A stretch of DNA of 64,000 bases. Source: an uncultured Bacteroidia bacterium (lineage in GTDB: Bacteria; Bacteroidota; Bacteroidia; Bacteroidales; Prolixibacteraceae). Position 1 is the first letter of the stretch; each line of letters starts with the position of its first letter. Below, piece after piece: positions 1,541 to 17,563 of the stretch. The notes beneath the pieces were generated by a model. It searched no databases. It had not been told where the DNA came from and saw only the letters and a program-made list of their open reading frames with translations. The translations under genes were made by a program, and so were the position numbers. Location of the stretch: assembly GCA_903902325.1 (NCBI GenBank), contig CAIUUO010000154.1:1-64000 (forward strand). Reading direction: 5' to 3'.

Positions 1541-2854
1541 TTAAATTGTTGGTAATTGCCAGGGTTGACGATAAGGATGATCGAGCAGGCGTGCGGCCAT
1601 CGGGTTGCCGATGATCTCCTCCTTTTCTGGATCCCACTGAATCTTCTGTCCGGTCTGCATAGCGATTTCTCCCAGAAGTGCAACCGAAATGGCGCGGTAG
1701 GAAACTTCGATCGGTGCGATGGTTTTCTCTCCGGAGCGGACACAATCGACAAAATTCTGCCAGTGGTTGTCGCTCTTGATCAGGTGGATTTCCTTCTCGC
1801 CGATCACCTCATCGAGGATCTTAGGATCAGATGCCATCAAGACATCTCCACGGTCGACATGGATCCAGCCTTTGTCGCCATACCATGTTGTACCCATGCC
1901 TTTTTCCAGTCGTGCTGCGTTGCATACTCTCATCTCAATTCCGTTGGCATATTTGCAGAGGAAATCGTACTCAACGGGAACATTGTAGATCCCTTCTCTC
2001 GGATAAACACCTTCTCCTGATATTTCAACGGGTCCGGTATGTTCGAGTCCGGCGCCCCAGTTGGCGATGTCGATGTGGTGGCCGGCCCAGTCAGTCAGCT
2101 GACCGCCTGAATAATCGAGAATCCAGCGCCAGTTCCAGTGGCTGACGCCCCTGTACGCTACTTTTGGTGCAGGCCCGAGCCACATGTCCCAGTTCAGTTC
2201 TTTCGGGACATCCTGGATGGGTGGCGTTCCGATTCCCCTGTTTCCATTGGGAAGTCCCACTTCGATGGATTTGATCTTTCCGATCCGGCCGTTGATGGCC
2301 AGCTCAGCCCCTCTGTGAAAATTTGCATTTGACCTTTGCCAGCTACCTGTTTGCCAGGTGATTTTATTTTTTTGAACCGCCTTCACGATGGTCTGTCCAT
2401 CACGGATGGTGCGGCAGATAGGTTTTTCACCGTAGACATTCAGCTTTTTCTCCACCGCAGCGGTGTAGATGATTCCATGCCAATGGTCAGGCAATGCGAT
2501 ACAAACAGCATCGAGTTTCTCTTTCTCCAGGAATTCGCGGAAGTCGCCATACGTGCGGCAGTCGTTGTTGGCATAAGCCGCATCGGCCAGCGTTTTTGCC
2601 TGCTGCATGTTGTTGGTATCCACATCGCAAAGTGCCACAAACTGCACCTCCTTATTCAGTTTGAGGAAGTCGCGCATGTTGCTTTTGCCCTGGGAGCCGG
2701 TACCGATGGCACCCATCACAAGCCTGTTGCTGGGTGCCAGTTTGCCACCCATTCCCAAAGCAGTGGAAGGGATGATCTGTGGAAGAATCAGCGCTCCTGC
2801 CGAGGCAACTGCTGAATTCTTCAGGAAAGATCTTCTGTCGGAATTTTTAGTCAT
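1541..2854 (-). CDS. Gfo/Idh/MocA family oxidoreductase with Tat signal
   Basis: DRRSFLKNSAVASAGALILP Tat-like signal; VMGAIGTGSQGKSNMRDF Rossmann motif; LDAVCIALPDHWHGI...YGEKPICRTIRDG (EKP motif). Confidence 0.9.
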   Translation of the reverse strand: MTKNSDRRSFLKNSAVASAGALILPQIIPSTALGMGGKLAPSNRLVMGAIGTGSQGKSNMRDFLKLNKEVQFVALCDVDTNNMQQAKTLADAAYANNDCRTYGDFREFLEKEKLDAVCIALPDHWHGIIYTAAVEKKLNVYGEKPICRTIRDGQTIVKAVQKNKITWQTGSWQRSNANFHRGAELAINGRIGKIKSIEVGLPNGNRGIGTPPIQDVPKELNWDMWLGPAPKVAYRGVSHWNWRWILDYSGGQLTDWAGHHIDIANWGAGLEHTGPVEISGEGVYPREGIYNVPVEYDFLCKYANGIEMRVCNAARLEKGMGTTWYGDKGWIHVDRGDVLMASDPKILDEVIGEKEIHLIKSDNHWQNFVDCVRSGEKTIAPIEVSYRAISVALLGEIAMQTGQKIQWDPEKEEIIGNPMAARLLDHPYRQPWQLPTI

Positions 2855-3151: not shown

Positions 3152-4507
3152 TTATACATTCGGCGGAGTACCCGGTACCGGAACCTCAAATTTCATGTCG
3201 ACCGGACCAAATTTCAATTCCTTGGGTCCGAGCTGCATGTCTGACTTCATCATCTCCTCCCAGGTAACCAACTGACCGGTATAGGCAGCTGTTCGTCCCA
3301 TGATGGCGGTAAGGGTCGACAGACCAGTCTGTTCCGCCTGGTTGACATATTCCCCTTTTCGGATGGCATGGACAAGGTGCATGTGTTCCTGCACGTAGGC
3401 AGGTATCTTGAGTTGGTTCATCGCGTTTCCGTTTTCATCCTTTGGATATTCGAACTGCCATTTCACGTTCCCGTTAAGGTCCCATATCGTGTTGATGCAG
3501 TTGGTATAGCCTTCGGTGCCCATCACCATCTCTCCGGTTCTGTTGGTGCAGCTGTCGATCTCACGGCAGTAGCTGTGGGAGCTGACCCCGTTGCCATAGT
3601 CAAAATCGATGTTGAAGAAGTCGTACTGGTCGCCGGTGACGCGGCGGTGACGGCCTCCGTTCCCGATGGCGCTGATGGGCGTTTTACCCATGAACCAGTT
3701 GATGACATCGATATTATGGATATGTGTATCGAGGATGTGATCGCCGCAGAGCCAGCAGAAATTGTTCCAGTTGCGCACCATGTAGGTCATGTCGTCCCAG
3801 CCATCCTCACGGGTCCGGAACCAGACATGGTCCTGGTTCCAGAAGGCCTTGGCGGAGGTGAGCCGGCCAATAGCGCCCGCCTGGATTCGCTTGTATGTTT
3901 CGATGTAATCTTCCTGGTGGCGGCGTTGCGTACCTGTCACGACACAGAGGCCGAGCGCTTCGGCCTTTTTCCCTGTAGCGATGAGTGATCGGATTCCGAC
4001 AGGGTCGACGGCTACCGGTTTTTCCATGAAGACATGCTTCTTATTCAGGATGGCTTCCAGGAAGTGATCCGGACGGAAGCGGGGCGGAGTGGCCAGCAGG
4101 ACCACATCAAGCTCTTCGATGGCCATCATTTTTTTGTACCCGTCAAACCCGGTGAAGCAATTTTTTTCGGGAATCTCGAGGTTGAAGGATTTAAACCTTT
4201 CGCGGAAGGCATCGATCTTGTCCTGGAATACGTCGCAGACGGCGATGATTTCGAGGTCGGGACCTGCACTGATGAAGTTGATGGCTGCACCGGTTCCCCT
4301 GTTCCCTGCTCCCACCAGTCCGGCTTTCAGTTTCCTGCCTTTTGGTGCTCCCTTAAGTATGGGTGGAAGTCCGAGCGATGCGTTGGTTGCCTCTTTTTTA
4401 CAGGAGGAGATGAGGGCGCCTGCCCCGATTACGGTGGCACCGGCAAGGACACCGGCCCCCAAAAACTTTCTTCTGTCTATGTTTTTCTTGTTTTCCATCT
4501 GTATCAA
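3152..4507 (-). CDS. Gfo/Idh/MocA family oxidoreductase with Tat signal
   Basis: IDRRKFLGAGVLAGATVIGAGALISSCK signal; KAGLVGAGNRGTGAAINF; VLLATPPRFRPDHFLEAILNKKHVFMEKPVAVDP. Confidence 0.9.
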   Translation of the reverse strand: MIQMENKKNIDRRKFLGAGVLAGATVIGAGALISSCKKEATNASLGLPPILKGAPKGRKLKAGLVGAGNRGTGAAINFISAGPDLEIIAVCDVFQDKIDAFRERFKSFNLEIPEKNCFTGFDGYKKMMAIEELDVVLLATPPRFRPDHFLEAILNKKHVFMEKPVAVDPVGIRSLIATGKKAEALGLCVVTGTQRRHQEDYIETYKRIQAGAIGRLTSAKAFWNQDHVWFRTREDGWDDMTYMVRNWNNFCWLCGDHILDTHIHNIDVINWFMGKTPISAIGNGGRHRRVTGDQYDFFNIDFDYGNGVSSHSYCREIDSCTNRTGEMVMGTEGYTNCINTIWDLNGNVKWQFEYPKDENGNAMNQLKIPAYVQEHMHLVHAIRKGEYVNQAEQTGLSTLTAIMGRTAAYTGQLVTWEEMMKSDMQLGPKELKFGPVDMKFEVPVPGTPPNV

Positions 4508-4510
4508 TAA

Positions 4511-6055
4511 TTATTGACCCACTACCGTGGAGTCTGCTTCACAAACAATTCTGAAACCTACATCATTGCTGTCTGAATACCACCAAACACTCTTGGGCAT
4601 CTGCGGATCGGTCATCAGCCATGCCTTGGTTTTGGTGAAATCCCTTGCAGCACTCCTCACATCCTTGGCATCACTTTTAAAGGATCCGCCACGGATGACA
4701 TGTTCCTGTCCGTTATCCGGACCTGTCGGGTTGTTGATTATGGCTCCGGATGCAGCTTGATAGGCATTCGGGGCATAAAAGTCAAGGCAGAACTCCGCGA
4801 CATTTCCCAGCATGTTTTTCAACCCGAACGGATTGGCCTTTATCGATTCAGGTGCACGGGTCCTTGAAAGGCTGTTTCCCTTGTAAATCACGTAGGAGTT
4901 GATTACAGTTGTGTCGGCACCGAATATTTGGTGCAGCAATCCGGTGGCGCTGAATGATTTCGGATTTCCCGGGAAGAAATAGGGATCTTTGGTGCCACCG
5001 CGGCAGGCATATTCCCATTCGGCTTCCGTAGGCAGCCTGTATTTTTTCCCAGTCTTTTTACTCAGCCATAAACAATAGGTACTTGCTGCCTTCCACGACA
5101 TGGTGATGGCGGGCCGTGTACCTTTTCCCCATCCTTGATCGGGTGCACCCCATGGCGGAGTGGGTCCTGTAATGGCATCCGTAACAGGCTGATTGACTGT
5201 AGCCTCTTTTCGGCCTTGAGATGCCGTTGCCTTGAAGAATTCGAGGTATTCGTCCCAGCTTACTTCGGCCTTGCCCATCCAGAATCTGGAGAGATGCACC
5301 TTCCTGACAGGACCTTCATCCGGTTTCCGGAGTTGTTCCTTCTCCGGACTACCCATTTCAAAAGTACCTTCCGGGATGGCTACCATTTCGAAGGAAAGGG
5401 TCGTCCCGGGTACTTTTTCAGCAAAATTTTCAAATTTCTGAACTTTCGCAGGTTCCGTGAAAAGCTCTTTTGCTACCGTTTCAGTAACTCCAAAATTGGC
5501 ATTGTGGGCATGGATGTTGTTCTTGTCGTAATGTCCGACGTTGAGGTGGCAATTGATGCAGTTGGGTTTTGGGGTCTCCTTGCTATTGACATACTGCAAG
5601 TGGGCGTTGCTGCCGTTTACCGACAGTGTTGCAGGGAAAAGATTCTGGTGGCATTTGATGCAGGACTCTTCATAAACGTACTTTTTAGCATTTTCGAGGG
5701 ATTTTCTGGTGTCCCAGTCGAAGGAAGCACTGTCTTTGAAAAGCTTGCCATAAACATCCTTCGCACCGTGAAAGGCTTTTGCAGGCAGGTAACCATGTCC
5801 TTTGGGCGGAAGATGACATTCGACGCAATGGGTAATTACGCCGGCCTTGTTGTTGAAATGCTCCGACAATCTCCAGTTTTGATCCTGTACCGGATGGATG
5901 TGACACGAGATACAATACTTGTCACTGGAGGTATATTCCGACACTTTGTCCAGTGACCATAAAAATAGGGAACAGAGTAGGATTCCTGATCCGACCAAAA
6001 GGAATTTCAACCTGTTTCCTTTGAATACGTTGCTCAGCTTCATTCTGAATATCAA
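4511..6055 (-). CDS. NapC/NrfH-like tetraheme cytochrome c fused to a SUMF1/FGE-like (EgtB/PvdO-type fold) domain
   Basis: N-terminal TM helix plus four CXXCH motifs (CISCH, CVECH, CIKCH, CINCH) in NapC-like spacing; C-terminal half MVAIPEGTFEMGSPEKEQLRKPDEGPVRKVHLSRFWMGKAEVSWDEYLEF...YRLPTEAEWEYACRGG...NMLGNVAEFCLD...VIRGGSF...VGFRIV is SUMF1-type. Confidence 0.88.
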   Translation of the reverse strand: MIFRMKLSNVFKGNRLKFLLVGSGILLCSLFLWSLDKVSEYTSSDKYCISCHIHPVQDQNWRLSEHFNNKAGVITHCVECHLPPKGHGYLPAKAFHGAKDVYGKLFKDSASFDWDTRKSLENAKKYVYEESCIKCHQNLFPATLSVNGSNAHLQYVNSKETPKPNCINCHLNVGHYDKNNIHAHNANFGVTETVAKELFTEPAKVQKFENFAEKVPGTTLSFEMVAIPEGTFEMGSPEKEQLRKPDEGPVRKVHLSRFWMGKAEVSWDEYLEFFKATASQGRKEATVNQPVTDAITGPTPPWGAPDQGWGKGTRPAITMSWKAASTYCLWLSKKTGKKYRLPTEAEWEYACRGGTKDPYFFPGNPKSFSATGLLHQIFGADTTVINSYVIYKGNSLSRTRAPESIKANPFGLKNMLGNVAEFCLDFYAPNAYQAASGAIINNPTGPDNGQEHVIRGGSFKSDAKDVRSAARDFTKTKAWLMTDPQMPKSVWWYSDSNDVGFRIVCEADSTVVGQ

Positions 6056-8723: not shown

Positions 8724-9719
8724 TTATCCGGCCTGCGAAATAGCCACAGCAACAGCCACCGAGGCTCCCACCATCGGATTGTTGCCCATTCCGATCAGCC
8801 CCATCATCTCAACATGCGCGGGTACTGAGGAAGAACCTGCAAACTGCGCATCGGAATGCATACGCCCCATCGTATCCGTCATACCGTAGGATGCCGGGCC
8901 AGCGGCCATATTATCAGGGTGCAGGGTACGTCCTGTTCCGCCACCCGACGCTACTGAGAAATATTTCTTGCCCTGTTCGATGCACTCTTTCTTGTAAGTG
9001 CCTGCGACTGGGTGCTGGAAGCGGGTCGGGTTGGTAGAGTTTCCGGTGATTGAAACATCGACTCCCTCGCTGTGCATGATGGCCACTCCTTCCCTGACAT
9101 CGTCGGCGCCGTAAACATTCACCTTTCCCTTCTCTCCAGTGGAATAAGGAGTACGGGCAACTTCCTCCAATTCACCCGTTGCATAGTCAAATTGTGTCTG
9201 CACATAGGTGAAACCGTTTACACGGGCAATGATTTTCGCGGCATCCTTGCCCAATCCGTTCAGAATGACACGCAACGGTTCCTTGCGCACGCGGTTGGCA
9301 GATTTGGCAATTCCTATGGCACCTTCCGCGGCAGCGAAAGATTCGTGCCCGGCCAGGAAGCAGAAACATTTGGTCTCTTCGCGAAGCAACATGGCGGCAA
9401 GATTGCCGTGGCCTATTCCGACTTTCCTGTCATCGGCCACGGAGCCGGGAATGCAGAATGCCTGGAGTCCTTCACCCAGCGTGGCTGCAATGTCGGCGGC
9501 TTTCGTTTGGCCTTTTTTGATGGCGATGGCACCTCCAACAATGTATGACCACATCGCGTTTTCGAAAGCAATAGGTTGGATCTCCTTCACAATTTTGTAT
9601 ACATCAACACCTTTGCTATCGCAGATTTTTCGGGCTTCTTCAATGGAAGGAATTCCGTAGGATTGCAAAACGGTATTTATTTTGTCGATTCTTCTGTCGT
9701 AACTTTCAAATAATGGCAT
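8724..9719 (-). CDS. GGGtGRT family protein
   Basis: Contains FSVASGGGTGRTLHPDNMAAGPASYGMTDTMGRMHSDAQFAGSSSVPAHVEMMGLIGMGNNPMVGASVAVAV; preceded by an AGGAGG Shine-Dalgarno. Confidence 0.9.
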   Translation of the reverse strand: MPLFESYDRRIDKINTVLQSYGIPSIEEARKICDSKGVDVYKIVKEIQPIAFENAMWSYIVGGAIAIKKGQTKAADIAATLGEGLQAFCIPGSVADDRKVGIGHGNLAAMLLREETKCFCFLAGHESFAAAEGAIGIAKSANRVRKEPLRVILNGLGKDAAKIIARVNGFTYVQTQFDYATGELEEVARTPYSTGEKGKVNVYGADDVREGVAIMHSEGVDVSITGNSTNPTRFQHPVAGTYKKECIEQGKKYFSVASGGGTGRTLHPDNMAAGPASYGMTDTMGRMHSDAQFAGSSSVPAHVEMMGLIGMGNNPMVGASVAVAVAISQAG

Positions 9720-9731
9720 AACTGTTTCCTC

Positions 9732-10424
9732 CTATTCTTTACGTGGGTCAATTACTTTTACTGCTTCATCCATCCGGCCATATTTGCCTGAAGCTTTTTT
9801 CAGGGCTTCGCCCGCTTCGGTTCCGGCTTTGATCATGTCGAGCATGCGGCCGAGGTTTAAAAACTCATAGCCGATAATTTCATTGCCAGCATCGAGTCCG
9901 ATTCTGGTGACATAGCCTTCGGCCATTTCCAGGTACCTCGGGCCCTTGGCAACTGTGCCATACATGGTAGCCGTTACGCTTCTCAATCCTTTCCCAAGGT
10001 CTTCGAGTCCGGCACCGATAGGCAACCCATCTTCGGAGAAAGCTGTTTGGGTGCGGCCATAAACGATCTGCAGAAATAGTTCGCGCATGGCGGTGTTGAT
10101 CGCGTCACAAACGAGGTCGGTGTTGAGTGCTTCCAGGATGGTCTTTCCCGGCAGGATTTCAGCGGCCATCGCTGCAGAATGAGTCATCCCTGAACAGCCG
10201 ATTGTTTCTACCAGTGCCTCCTGGATGATCCCCTCTTTCACATTCAGGGTGAGCTTGCAGGCCCCTTGCTGGGGCGCACACCATCCTACACCGTGGGTCA
10301 GTCCCGAAATGTCCTTTACCTCTTTGGCTTTTACCCAACGTCCCTCCTCGGGAATTGGAGCCGATCCGTGGTTCGCCCCCTGGGCGACACAGATCATACC
10401 TTCAACTTCATGTGTAAAACTCAT
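9732..10424 (-). CDS. NifU/IscU-like iron-sulfur scaffold-related protein, operonic with the GGGtGRT gene
   Basis: GWCAPQQGACKLTLNVKEGIIQEALVETIGCSGMTHSAAMAAEILPGKTILEALNTDLVCDAI resembles IscU-type Cys spacing; stop overlaps the downstream SD. Confidence 0.75.
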   Translation of the reverse strand: MSFTHEVEGMICVAQGANHGSAPIPEEGRWVKAKEVKDISGLTHGVGWCAPQQGACKLTLNVKEGIIQEALVETIGCSGMTHSAAMAAEILPGKTILEALNTDLVCDAINTAMRELFLQIVYGRTQTAFSEDGLPIGAGLEDLGKGLRSVTATMYGTVAKGPRYLEMAEGYVTRIGLDAGNEIIGYEFLNLGRMLDMIKAGTEAGEALKKASGKYGRMDEAVKVIDPRKE

Positions 10425-13569: not shown

Positions 13570-15483
13570 TCAAAACTTCCTGATCATCCTGTTGAAATCA
13601 AGATATAGTGACTTGCCATTCAGTTCAAATTTGATGGCTTCGGCTTTTCTGTCAGCCTTGCAATAGGGCGAATCGAAGCGATCGTATGCCCTGCTGAAAG
13701 TTGCACCGTTGACTTTGAAATCTTCCTTGAACTTCAGGAGGTATAAACCCCCGCGGGACTCGTAATTCAGTACCAGGTTGAGGGAATCGAAAGTGCATGG
13801 ATTGTGGAGGATCCTGTCCCGGAATTTTTCAAACGACAGATCTTCTTCTTCCGAACCTGCCTCCATGATCCAGAAGGTCTTCTTCCCTTTCTGAATCAGG
13901 TTGTCAGTTGTGTTTTTCCTGAAGGACAGCGTGTTTTTAGTGATCAGGGCGCAATAGGTTTTGCCTTTCTTTCCCATCGCATAATTGCCTTCAACACAAA
14001 CAGTATCAAATAGCTCTTTCGGGAAATAGGCGTGGGTATAATCGAGCAGTGATTTTTCCATCATTCCCTTTTTCGCGGGAATGTTATAGATGGCCAGAGA
14101 TACGTTACGATCCTGTCCCACATCGGGCATGCGTCCGTAGCCTACCCAATAGTTGGGCGACTGGCTTTTCACCCCCTCTTCCAACGCAGGATGAGTATGG
14201 AATACGCTGAAGGCATTGCCGATGTTCATGCCTGCAACATGCTGCTGATCGCCGAATGTACCCGGATGATAGTTTTGGGCAGAATAAACGGAGTAATCAC
14301 CGGTCTTGTAGGTGTACGTATTTCCTTTCTGGATCGCCACGCCATCAGAGGGTGGCTGGATGAACCTACCGACGGCAGGTTCGAGGTGAAGCCAACTCAG
14401 CAAACTGATATCCATCACTTTCAGATCTGAGATGAATCCATTGGTAAACATGTGGTTGGTCCTCACGAAGGATAAGGTATTTCGGATGATTTCAGGATTG
14501 GTGAATGCCTCCATACCCAGTTGCATCATCATGCTTCTGGTATCCGTACCATAATAGCCTTCGGTTTTAAGTTCAGAAATATCCAGTCCGCTGCACTGTT
14601 TGATCACTACCTTGCTGGAATCCTTTCCGATCTCAGCAATGACGGGTGGCAGAATGTATTTTTTGGGCGCCACAAGTCCGTATGCCATTCCGGGACCCAT
14701 TTCTTTGCCGCTTCCCCAATAATAATCCGTAATCCCGCCAAGCGTTGTATGGGGTCCGCCCTTTCGGCTGTGTTCATAAGCCCGGCCGCTGGCCGAAACG
14801 AACATGGTATGGATGTTCTGGGTGGCTACATCGGCCATCAGCAGATCCATCACGATCTCCATTTTTTTGACAATCTCCTCATCGGATGCGTAATTGATCA
14901 GGTTGATCATTCCCCCAATATCTTCGGTGTAATAAACATTCGAGAAGAATTCGGTAAAACCGTATTTCCAGCGCATTTCCATCCAGTCGAGAATACGCTT
15001 TCTTGCCTTGTCGCTGTGCGCTTTGCCTGTCATCCCGCTTTTTGGGAAGAGGGTATCAGGGTACTTTAATCCGATCAGGTATTCAGCAGAGGCATACAGA
15101 ATCTGGTGATTTTCACTCCAGTAACACATGGAGTTTCCACCCGGTTCATCCCACCAGTAGCGAAAATTAAGAATGGATTTTTCAATATTTGCCTTGACTT
15201 CAGCGGGAATCCGGTCTCCGAAGTCATACAATATCCTGATCAGGCCAACAAATTTGAAGTCGGAACAATCATATTGCAAGTCAATGAATTTGAGCGTTCC
15301 ATCCAATCCATGCCAGTTGATATCCTGTTTCCCTGCAACCAGTTGGGCATAAATCTGATCCTGCATGGAAGGCATATCCAACGACTCCTTCAGGGTGAAG
15401 GACTTGTTTCTGTAGATGCTTATCCCGTCAAAAACAAGGGTAGCTACTGCAACAAGCAAAGTCAGGAGGAGAAATTTTTTCAT
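13570..15483 (-). CDS. Secreted protein of unknown family, predicted (alpha/alpha)-toroid + beta-sandwich (candidate polysaccharide lyase/hydrolase)
   Basis: N-terminal hydrophobic segment; helical region with CYWSENHQILYASAEYLIG; beta-rich C-terminus. Fold is inference. Confidence 0.5.
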   Translation of the reverse strand: MKKFLLLTLLVAVATLVFDGISIYRNKSFTLKESLDMPSMQDQIYAQLVAGKQDINWHGLDGTLKFIDLQYDCSDFKFVGLIRILYDFGDRIPAEVKANIEKSILNFRYWWDEPGGNSMCYWSENHQILYASAEYLIGLKYPDTLFPKSGMTGKAHSDKARKRILDWMEMRWKYGFTEFFSNVYYTEDIGGMINLINYASDEEIVKKMEIVMDLLMADVATQNIHTMFVSASGRAYEHSRKGGPHTTLGGITDYYWGSGKEMGPGMAYGLVAPKKYILPPVIAEIGKDSSKVVIKQCSGLDISELKTEGYYGTDTRSMMMQLGMEAFTNPEIIRNTLSFVRTNHMFTNGFISDLKVMDISLLSWLHLEPAVGRFIQPPSDGVAIQKGNTYTYKTGDYSVYSAQNYHPGTFGDQQHVAGMNIGNAFSVFHTHPALEEGVKSQSPNYWVGYGRMPDVGQDRNVSLAIYNIPAKKGMMEKSLLDYTHAYFPKELFDTVCVEGNYAMGKKGKTYCALITKNTLSFRKNTTDNLIQKGKKTFWIMEAGSEEEDLSFEKFRDRILHNPCTFDSLNLVLNYESRGGLYLLKFKEDFKVNGATFSRAYDRFDSPYCKADRKAEAIKFELNGKSLYLDFNRMIRKF

Positions 15484-15694: not shown

Positions 15695-16432
15695 CTACAA
15701 TTCGCGGATTTTGATGTTACGGAACCAGACAGGGTAGCCATGATCCTGAAGGCCGATGTATCCTTCTTTAGCGATTCCTTCGGTCCAGCCCTGGAAACTT
15801 TTGAATTTGCTCTTGGCCACCATGGCATTCCATTCAGGAGTCCATAAGGTGTATTCACAAACTTTCACACCATTCATAAAGTGAACGGCTTTGCCATCTT
15901 TAACCTTAATCACACAAGTATTCCACTCGCCCGCAGGATGCACTGTTTTGGGATCGCAAGGCAGCAGATCGTACAAGGAACCGGCAAGGTGGTTGGCCAG
16001 TTTGTTGTCTGTTGCATCGACGTTGTCGAGTACCTGAACTTCGGGAGCAGCATAATAAATTGGCTCGCCCGGTTTTTCCCTTACATAGTAGAAGATACCT
16101 GAATTAGCCATTTTGCTGGCTTTCCAGTCGACGGTAAGTTCAAAGTTCTTGTATTTTTTGCCAGGGACAAGGATATCCCCGTTGGAACCCTGTCCTGGTT
16201 TTTTATCAGGGGCGGTGAAAACCTTCATAGCGTTGTCTTCGATCACCCAGTTTGTGGGCATGGCAGTTCCGTTGCACTGTCTCCAGCCGCTGAAATCTTT
16301 TCCGTTGAACAGAAGGGCCCAACCCTCCTTCTTCTCTTTTTTTGTAAGTTGATTTAGCCCTTGTGAAAAAGCAGGAGCCGCAATTAACATCGCTGCAAAT
16401 AATGTGATGGTCAGAAAAATGTTTCGCTTCAT
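15695..16432 (-). CDS. DUF1080 (3-keto-disaccharide hydrolase family) secreted protein
   Basis: EGWALLFNGKDFSGWRQ...WVIEDNAMKV...NFELTVDWKASKMANSGIFYYVRE...PEVQVLDN...GEWNTCVIKVKDGKAVHFMNG...GYIGLQDHGYPVWFRNIKIREL. Confidence 0.93.
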   Translation of the reverse strand: MKRNIFLTITLFAAMLIAAPAFSQGLNQLTKKEKKEGWALLFNGKDFSGWRQCNGTAMPTNWVIEDNAMKVFTAPDKKPGQGSNGDILVPGKKYKNFELTVDWKASKMANSGIFYYVREKPGEPIYYAAPEVQVLDNVDATDNKLANHLAGSLYDLLPCDPKTVHPAGEWNTCVIKVKDGKAVHFMNGVKVCEYTLWTPEWNAMVAKSKFKSFQGWTEGIAKEGYIGLQDHGYPVWFRNIKIREL

Positions 16433-16541: not shown

Positions 16542-17483
16542 TTATTTGCCCTCTTTAACTGACTCCACGCCATCAGCCGCACATCTGAATCCTGTATTGA
16601 ACAAGGATGTTTCCTGTGTATTGGAGGATCTGCCGGTTGTTGAGAAACTGCTCTCCCCGTTCTCGTCAAAAAAGAATGAGCCACCCCTTATTACCTTCAA
16701 ATCCGGGTTAGCCTGAAAAGGAGAATTATTGCCCGGATAAAGTGTGTAAACATCTGTGCACCAGTTCCAAACATTACCGCCCATATCTGTCAGTCCACAC
16801 TGGTTCTCCCCGTAAAACCCAACTGGAGAAGTAAGGACAAAGCCATCGGCTCCCTGTTTGGCCTGAAGATCATTACCCTGCCAGACATTGGCCATGTATT
16901 TGCCATCCACAATCAGACTATTGCCCCAACTAAAACGGGATTTGCTTTTCCCTCCGCACCTTGCCGCATATTCCCATTCTGCTTCTGTGGGGAGACGCTT
17001 TCCTTCCCATGCTGCATAGGCCGCTGCATCATACCAGCTTACCTGCGTGACGGGATGGTCATTTTCAGCTTTTGCGGTGTTTTTGCCGAGAGGATATTGC
17101 CAGTTGGCACCCGGCTGCAAAGTCCAGCCCGATTTGTTGAAATCAAAGACTCCGGAATCTCCAAATTTTTCCGCGTCGGTTTTGTATCCTGTGGCCTCAA
17201 TAAATTTTCTGAAATCTGCCACCGTTACCGGAGATTTGTCTATTTTAAAGGACTTTACCTCCACTTTATGGGTAGGTCTTTCCTTGATGGGGCCGTTGGA
17301 TGTACCCATCATAAAAAAGCCTCCCTGAAAAAACACCATTTCACGTTTTGCAGTGGATTGAACTATCGCATTTTGGTCGACAGGAATTCCTTTTTCAACA
17401 ACGGTTTGTGACTTGTTGACCGGTTTACCGGAACAGGCCATTAATATCGGCAAGGAAAAAATAAGCAAAAATCGAATATCCAT
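16542..17483 (-). CDS. SUMF1/FGE-like fold lipoprotein, no catalytic Cys pair
   Basis: MVFFQGGFFMMGTSNGPIKERPTHKVEVKSF...HPVTQVSWYDAAAYAAWEGKRLPTEAEWEYAAR...MGGNVWNWCTD...VIRGGSFFF...TGFRCA. Confidence 0.88.
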   Translation of the reverse strand: MDIRFLLIFSLPILMACSGKPVNKSQTVVEKGIPVDQNAIVQSTAKREMVFFQGGFFMMGTSNGPIKERPTHKVEVKSFKIDKSPVTVADFRKFIEATGYKTDAEKFGDSGVFDFNKSGWTLQPGANWQYPLGKNTAKAENDHPVTQVSWYDAAAYAAWEGKRLPTEAEWEYAARCGGKSKSRFSWGNSLIVDGKYMANVWQGNDLQAKQGADGFVLTSPVGFYGENQCGLTDMGGNVWNWCTDVYTLYPGNNSPFQANPDLKVIRGGSFFFDENGESSFSTTGRSSNTQETSLFNTGFRCAADGVESVKEGK

Positions 17484-17563
17484 TGATTGTAGTATAAGCG
17501 TTATTAAATATTTGTGCAAATAGAAGATGAAAAACATTGGATTGATCGAAAGGAAACTCTTAA

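Follow-up and report, generated by a model that had tools for sequence, protein, structure and literature searches.

Proteins of the NapC/NrfH/TorC type normally carry electrons from quinol to a periplasmic reductase. Among proteins with an FGE-like fold, the solved PorK is a docking hub that has lost the catalytic cysteines (PMC12421860), and PvdO is required for the periplasmic oxidation of dihydropyoverdine; purified PvdO was inactive and contained no cofactor, its electron path is unsolved, and a requirement for an electron-transport partner has been discussed (PMC6206403). Membrane-linked periplasmic 3-oxidation of glycosides is known from LacABC, found beside DUF1080 genes, and DUF1080 proteins have been linked to the hydrolysis of 3-keto-sugars (PMC9007349). 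Exported Gfo/Idh/MocA enzymes with a bound cofactor can be redox-neutral, as in GFOR and AAOR, and then need no external acceptor (PMC4628093). In the window, i.e., the whole stretch of 64,000 nucleotides analyzed in this work, a NapC-type cytochrome and a SUMF1 domain are joined in one protein. Each half of this fusion is a member of a known family; in the open-license papers searched, we found no description of the NapC–SUMF1 architecture and its partner.

The fusion gene (4511..6055, minus strand) has no internal stop in the open reading frame listing. Counted from the listed TTG at 6055, its product has 514 amino acids; translation more probably begins at an in-frame ATG (6043, residue 5). 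A first-pass annotation of this DNA had placed a membrane anchor, four CXXCH motifs and a SUMF1 domain on a single reading frame and had suggested searching this protein for PF03264 and PF03781. This layout was confirmed. A hydrophobic stretch that is also a helix in the AlphaFold2 model marks the N-terminal membrane helix (residues 14–38, 5942..6016, minus strand). Pfam assigns a NapC/NirT-type tetraheme cytochrome domain to residues 19–176 (PF03264; 5528..6001, minus strand; 87.6 bits, E 1e-24, cut-off 24.1) and a SUMF1/FGE-fold domain to residues 223–473 (PF03781; 4637..5389, minus strand; 148 bits, E 4e-43, cut-off 23.3). Both profiles matched well above their cut-offs in all 11 aligned fusion members. 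The fusion is a real gene and not a frameshift or assembly chimera, since a genome search found a second full-length copy with 56% identity in the same genome (G000:C280) and many full-length homologs exist across the order. Public genome contigs held nine additional full-length fusions, and sampling of the order Bacteroidales found them in 51 of 393 genomes, representing 27 of 207 genera, whereas a phylum-wide draw contributed one outside the order (G735). The NapC fusions group as a single clade of the SUMF1 tree (support 100/99), and the SUMF1 subfamily to which they belong spans Bacteroidota, Planctomycetota and Verrucomicrobiota. The deepest branch of the clade is a fusion from a metagenome-assembled genome labeled candidate division KSB1 (L014), which reflects either a transfer or a binning error.

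The cytochrome part contains the heme motifs CISCH (residues 48–52, 5900..5914), CVECH (77–81, 5813..5827), CIKCH (132–136, 5648..5662) and CINCH (166–170, 5546..5560), all on the minus strand, and an alignment of 40 fusions shows these CXXCH motifs to be invariant. Eight histidines in all are conserved there without exception, the four of the CXXCH motifs together with H54, H66, H152 and H175. This is the number needed for four bis-histidine hemes, and judged from the alignment, the latter four may act as distal ligands. A sequence search identified NrfH (2j7a/2vr0), the menaquinol dehydrogenase of NrfHA, as a solved relative of the heme part. One membrane helix, four c-type hemes and an expected periplasmic orientation are common to the fusion, NrfH and the NapC/NirT/TorC proteins. 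In addition, K93 and D100 of the fusion align with K82 and D89, established quinol-site residues of NrfH. Because these equivalents are kept in 39/40 and 40/40 fusions, respectively, a quinone-reactive role of the cytochrome part appears plausible, probably with an altered first heme: the heme-1 ligand of NrfH is Met49 (CXXCHxM), whereas at this position, after motif 1, 40/40 fusions have His54. The fusion differs from NrfH also in that NrfH works with a separate reductase partner, in place of which it carries the C-terminal SUMF1 domain, and it missed the NCBIfam equivalog cut-offs of NrfH (69 of 134 bits), TorC (56 of 478) and NapC (37 of 349). The AlphaFold2 model reached good confidence over most of the SUMF1 domain; most of residues 41–200 fell below pLDDT 60, and because of this low confidence in the cytochrome part the heme-to-pocket distance is not usable. 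The same genome encodes a different multiheme membrane protein of about 499 amino acids with a partial NapC match (G000:C158:83638-83901, L090).

With FGE, the SUMF1 domain shares the fold and the PF03781 profile. FGE, however, possesses a catalytic cysteine pair, which a profile alignment to active FGE structures showed to be missing after GGSF in the fusion; in all 40 fusions, positions 458–467 are free of cysteine. An active FGE was therefore rejected. Further differences from FGE are the fused cytochrome and a conserved partner that is an oxidoreductase and not a sulfatase. DinB domains carry the iron ligands of EgtB and OvoA; Pfam detected none in the fusion, which also scored below the NCBIfam cut-offs of EgtB (61 of 360 bits) and SenA (51 of 420 bits). 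The metal- or O2-dependent oxidative chemistry of the FGE/EgtB kind that the first-pass annotation had ascribed to this domain is hence unsupported, as is formylglycine formation, because the FGE cysteines are gone in 40/40 fusions. From its proposal of a periplasmic enzyme that exchanges electrons with the quinol pool, the exchange itself gains weight from the K82/D89 equivalents and the eight invariant heme histidines, whereas FGE- or EgtB-like catalysis by the SUMF1 domain is not supported. PorK/GldK of the T9SS ring likewise combine an FGE-like fold with loss of the catalytic cysteines, but these are outer-membrane-associated ring proteins without hemes; the GldK model gave 105 bits with the fusion (cut-off 350).

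What the first-pass annotation overlooked, and what we regard as the strongest clue, is the conserved neighbor. A Tat-signal Gfo/Idh/MocA oxidoreductase (3152..4507, minus strand) comes after the fusion stop codon at a distance of only 3 nt, followed on the same strand by a second Tat-signal Gfo/Idh/MocA oxidoreductase (1541..2854) and a ThuA-family protein (PF06283; 130..1392). In the closest relatives (L008–L011), the latter two are the conserved third and fourth genes of operons with the order fusion, Gfo, Gfo, ThuA. A Gfo/Idh/MocA gene directly follows the NapC fusion in 10/10 informative loci, i.e., in the window, L007–L012, L014 (where the Gfo gene is truncated), L015 and L016; L013 was left out, as it offered too little sequence. 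Further NapC fusions had a Gfo gene in 28 of 29 cases, 26 of them directly downstream on the same strand and two within 290 bases but on the opposite strand, with L106 as the sole exception. These counts are not independent of the first set because some of the genomes may be of the same species. Even among SUMF1 relatives without NapC, 50 of 71 have a same-strand Gfo gene no more than 1.7 kb away. In contrast, no Gfo gene occurred within 1.5 kb of other SUMF1 genes, neither at 30 control loci (SUMF1 proteins of nine genomes without the SUMF1 subfamily of the fusion, some loci covering one protein) nor at four loci in the own genome, whose 4.8 Mb yield only 31 Gfo/Idh/MocA matches.

A twin arginine (RR) occurs near the N-terminus of each of the 57 full-length partners, which as a group retain the Rossmann GxGxRG, EKP and HNxD motifs; the window partner consists of PF01408 and a C-terminal domain. 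Its solved relatives include the Tat-exported aldose-aldose oxidoreductase and DgpA. The BT_2158 glycoside 3-dehydrogenase model (NF058561, cut-off 750) gave 32 bits for the partner and 158 bits for the second Gfo protein. We consider the Gfo/Idh/MocA partner the more likely catalyst, rather than the SUMF1 domain. Elsewhere, the window carries an island dense in genes for polysaccharide degradation (15695-63976; GH3, GH43, GH92, GH95, two sulfatases, DUF1080 and several exported proteins), most of them on the minus strand. Here a SUMF1 protein (16542-17537), likewise without cysteines after GGSF, adjoins a sulfatase. Outside the island, the window encodes a 637-amino-acid exported protein with no Pfam match (13570-15483) and an uncharacterized pair formed by a GGGtGRT-family protein and a protein with weak NifU_N similarity (8724-10424).

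The most economical mechanism, to which we assign a probability of about 50%, is that the fusion relays electrons between the quinone pool and a periplasmic sugar oxidoreductase docked via the SUMF1 domain. The Gfo/Idh/MocA enzyme with its bound NAD(P) would oxidize a sugar or glycoside, probably at C3. The SUMF1 fold might serve as a docking, or possibly a substrate-presenting, platform that brings this Tat-exported enzyme to the hemes, with PorK as a solved precedent for docking by such a fold, and the N-terminal helix and the NapC/NrfH-type tetraheme domain would exchange electrons with the menaquinone pool. Electrons would accordingly run from the Gfo/Idh/MocA enzyme over the SUMF1 dock and the four hemes to menaquinone. 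In this scheme, we infer the physical docking, the direction in which electrons flow, the nature of the sugar and the handover from a two-electron hydride carrier to one-electron hemes. The weak point of the relay is the hydride-to-heme step: Gfo/Idh/MocA enzymes hold NAD(P), hemes accept hydride poorly, and, speaking against the relay, the neighborhoods of the NapC fusions encode no flavin carrier. The redox-neutral exported family members and the missing Gfo gene at L106 also count against it. The locus resembles that of LacABC in that the window also contains a DUF1080 (3-keto-disaccharide hydrolase) gene (15698-16432) and a ThuA gene. Together with the operon order of the closest relatives, this context supports a sugar or glycoside as the compound oxidized. 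LacABC, however, is a three-component dehydrogenase that was not identified here, where Gfo/Idh/MocA enzymes and the NapC–SUMF1 fusion are found instead.

Twelve relatives of the fusion, mostly from Verrucomicrobiota, have one or two CXXCH motifs upstream of the SUMF1 domain. All eight that were scanned are PSCyt1 (PF07635)–SUMF1 fusions (L032, L037, L041, L042, L044, L061, L067 and L068); L047, L050, L052 and L060 are cytochrome–SUMF1 candidates by CXXCH only. The PSCyt1 fusions fall into two parts of the SUMF1 tree, both apart from the NapC clade, implying at least two separate fusions of this SUMF1 subfamily with c-type cytochromes. Furthermore, an apbE gene, which encodes an FAD:protein FMN transferase, lies near the SUMF1 gene, mostly directly adjacent, in 27 of 71 non-NapC relatives (including L021, L024, L028, L036, L042, L044, L047, L050, L071–L077 and L083–L086) but in 0/11 NapC fusions (Fisher p = 0.013), and the ApbE of the own genome is encoded elsewhere and not beside the fusion. 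A covalent flavin made by ApbE on the SUMF1 or Gfo protein could have been the hydride-to-electron adaptor. We rejected this candidate, since at the apbE loci the flavin acceptor motif [ST]GA[ST] was found in 0/27 SUMF1 proteins and 1/25 Gfo proteins, in the latter case near the N-terminal leader. Two published surveys of flavinylation mention neither SUMF1 nor MocA. The apbE neighborhood nevertheless marks a redox system. Our broader proposal is more tentative: these loci may represent an undescribed respiratory module in which an exported nicotinoprotein of the Gfo/Idh/MocA family, acting as a sugar oxidoreductase, discharges into the quinone pool via a SUMF1 dock, joined covalently to NapC hemes in Bacteroidales and, separately, to PSCyt1 hemes in Verrucomicrobiota, with ApbE taking part where NapC is absent. 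In a 723-amino-acid protein from Limisphaerales (L018:4684-6852), a weakly FG-GAP-repeat-like N-terminal part is joined to the same SUMF1 subfamily; a truncated Tat-signal Gfo-type gene comes next.

Other readings of the locus must be weighed against the relay. The SUMF1 domain itself might be the catalyst, a periplasmic oxidoreductase in analogy to PvdO, to which NapC gives or from which it takes electrons, while the Gfo protein takes an earlier or later step of the same pathway. PvdO (5hha) is the best fold match of the domain among PDB structures, ahead of FGE, and is also among the top sequence matches; both are periplasmic and share an oxidative context with an unsolved electron path, for which a possible electron-transport partner of PvdO has been raised (PMC6206403). 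The subfamily also has a motif of its own, DPQxPxSxW, present C-terminal of the SUMF1 domain as DPQxPKSxWW (residues 483–492), and invariant W479, D483 and R471. PvdO differs, however, in having no fused cytochrome and belonging to another pathway, and the fusion reached 108 bits with the PvdO model NF051459 (cut-off 500). Moreover, none of the known metal- or cofactor-binding sets was recognized in the domain, the FGE cysteine pair is absent, and catalysis by PvdO alone has likewise not been demonstrated (PMC6206403), which leaves a catalytic SUMF1 domain doubtful. The SUMF1 domain might instead mature or modify the Gfo partner, acting on a conserved cysteine as FGE does, with NapC as its redox partner replacing O2. 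In favor of this, C314 is conserved in 86% of partners across phyla, and the SUMF1 fold is best known from protein-modifying enzymes. Yet both FGE catalytic cysteines are gone and the surroundings of C314 (CRQID/CRH) are not a CxPxR motif, so that we regard this role as highly improbable.

Electrons might also flow the other way, from quinol via the fusion to a periplasmic partner. This would be the customary direction for the NrfH, NapC and TorC models that match the N-terminal part, and it would suit the near confinement of the NapC fusions to one order of mostly anaerobes. However, the bound NAD(P)+ would then need to be re-reduced from the hemes, and sugar oxidation is easier to reconcile with the largely aerobic Flavobacteriia, Sphingobacteriia and Planctomycetota, where this SUMF1–Gfo pairing occurs without NapC; we hence consider the reductase direction quite unlikely. 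Finally, the linkage could merely reflect a shared context of polysaccharide utilization, with the fusion being an unspecialized periplasmic cytochrome whose SUMF1 domain binds glycans or a surface and which does not work directly with the Gfo protein. The polysaccharide-degradation island with its GH3, GH43, GH92, GH95 and sulfatase genes would agree with this, and SUMF1-like folds can bind ligands, as in TvpA (2y3c), which was matched in sequence and fold searches. But the Gfo gene stays immediately beside the SUMF1 gene across phyla and surroundings, including L007 and L016 with no recognized glycosidase nearby, and it is missing at the control SUMF1 loci, making a mere coincidence of context very unlikely.

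Polysaccharide-degrading Bacteroidota, Planctomycetota and Verrucomicrobiota encode many Tat-exported Gfo/Idh/MocA proteins. To our knowledge, it is largely open how exported enzymes containing NAD(P) recycle their cofactor, or whether they feed the respiratory chain at all. The covalent link of a quinone-facing tetraheme domain to a SUMF1 domain, with a Gfo gene kept adjacent, makes this cofactor recycling directly testable. The fusion is also relevant to other SUMF1-fold proteins with an unsolved electron path, for example, PvdO. Its linkage to Gfo genes suggests a so far undescribed route by which electrons from sugar oxidation outside the cytoplasm may enter the respiratory chain.
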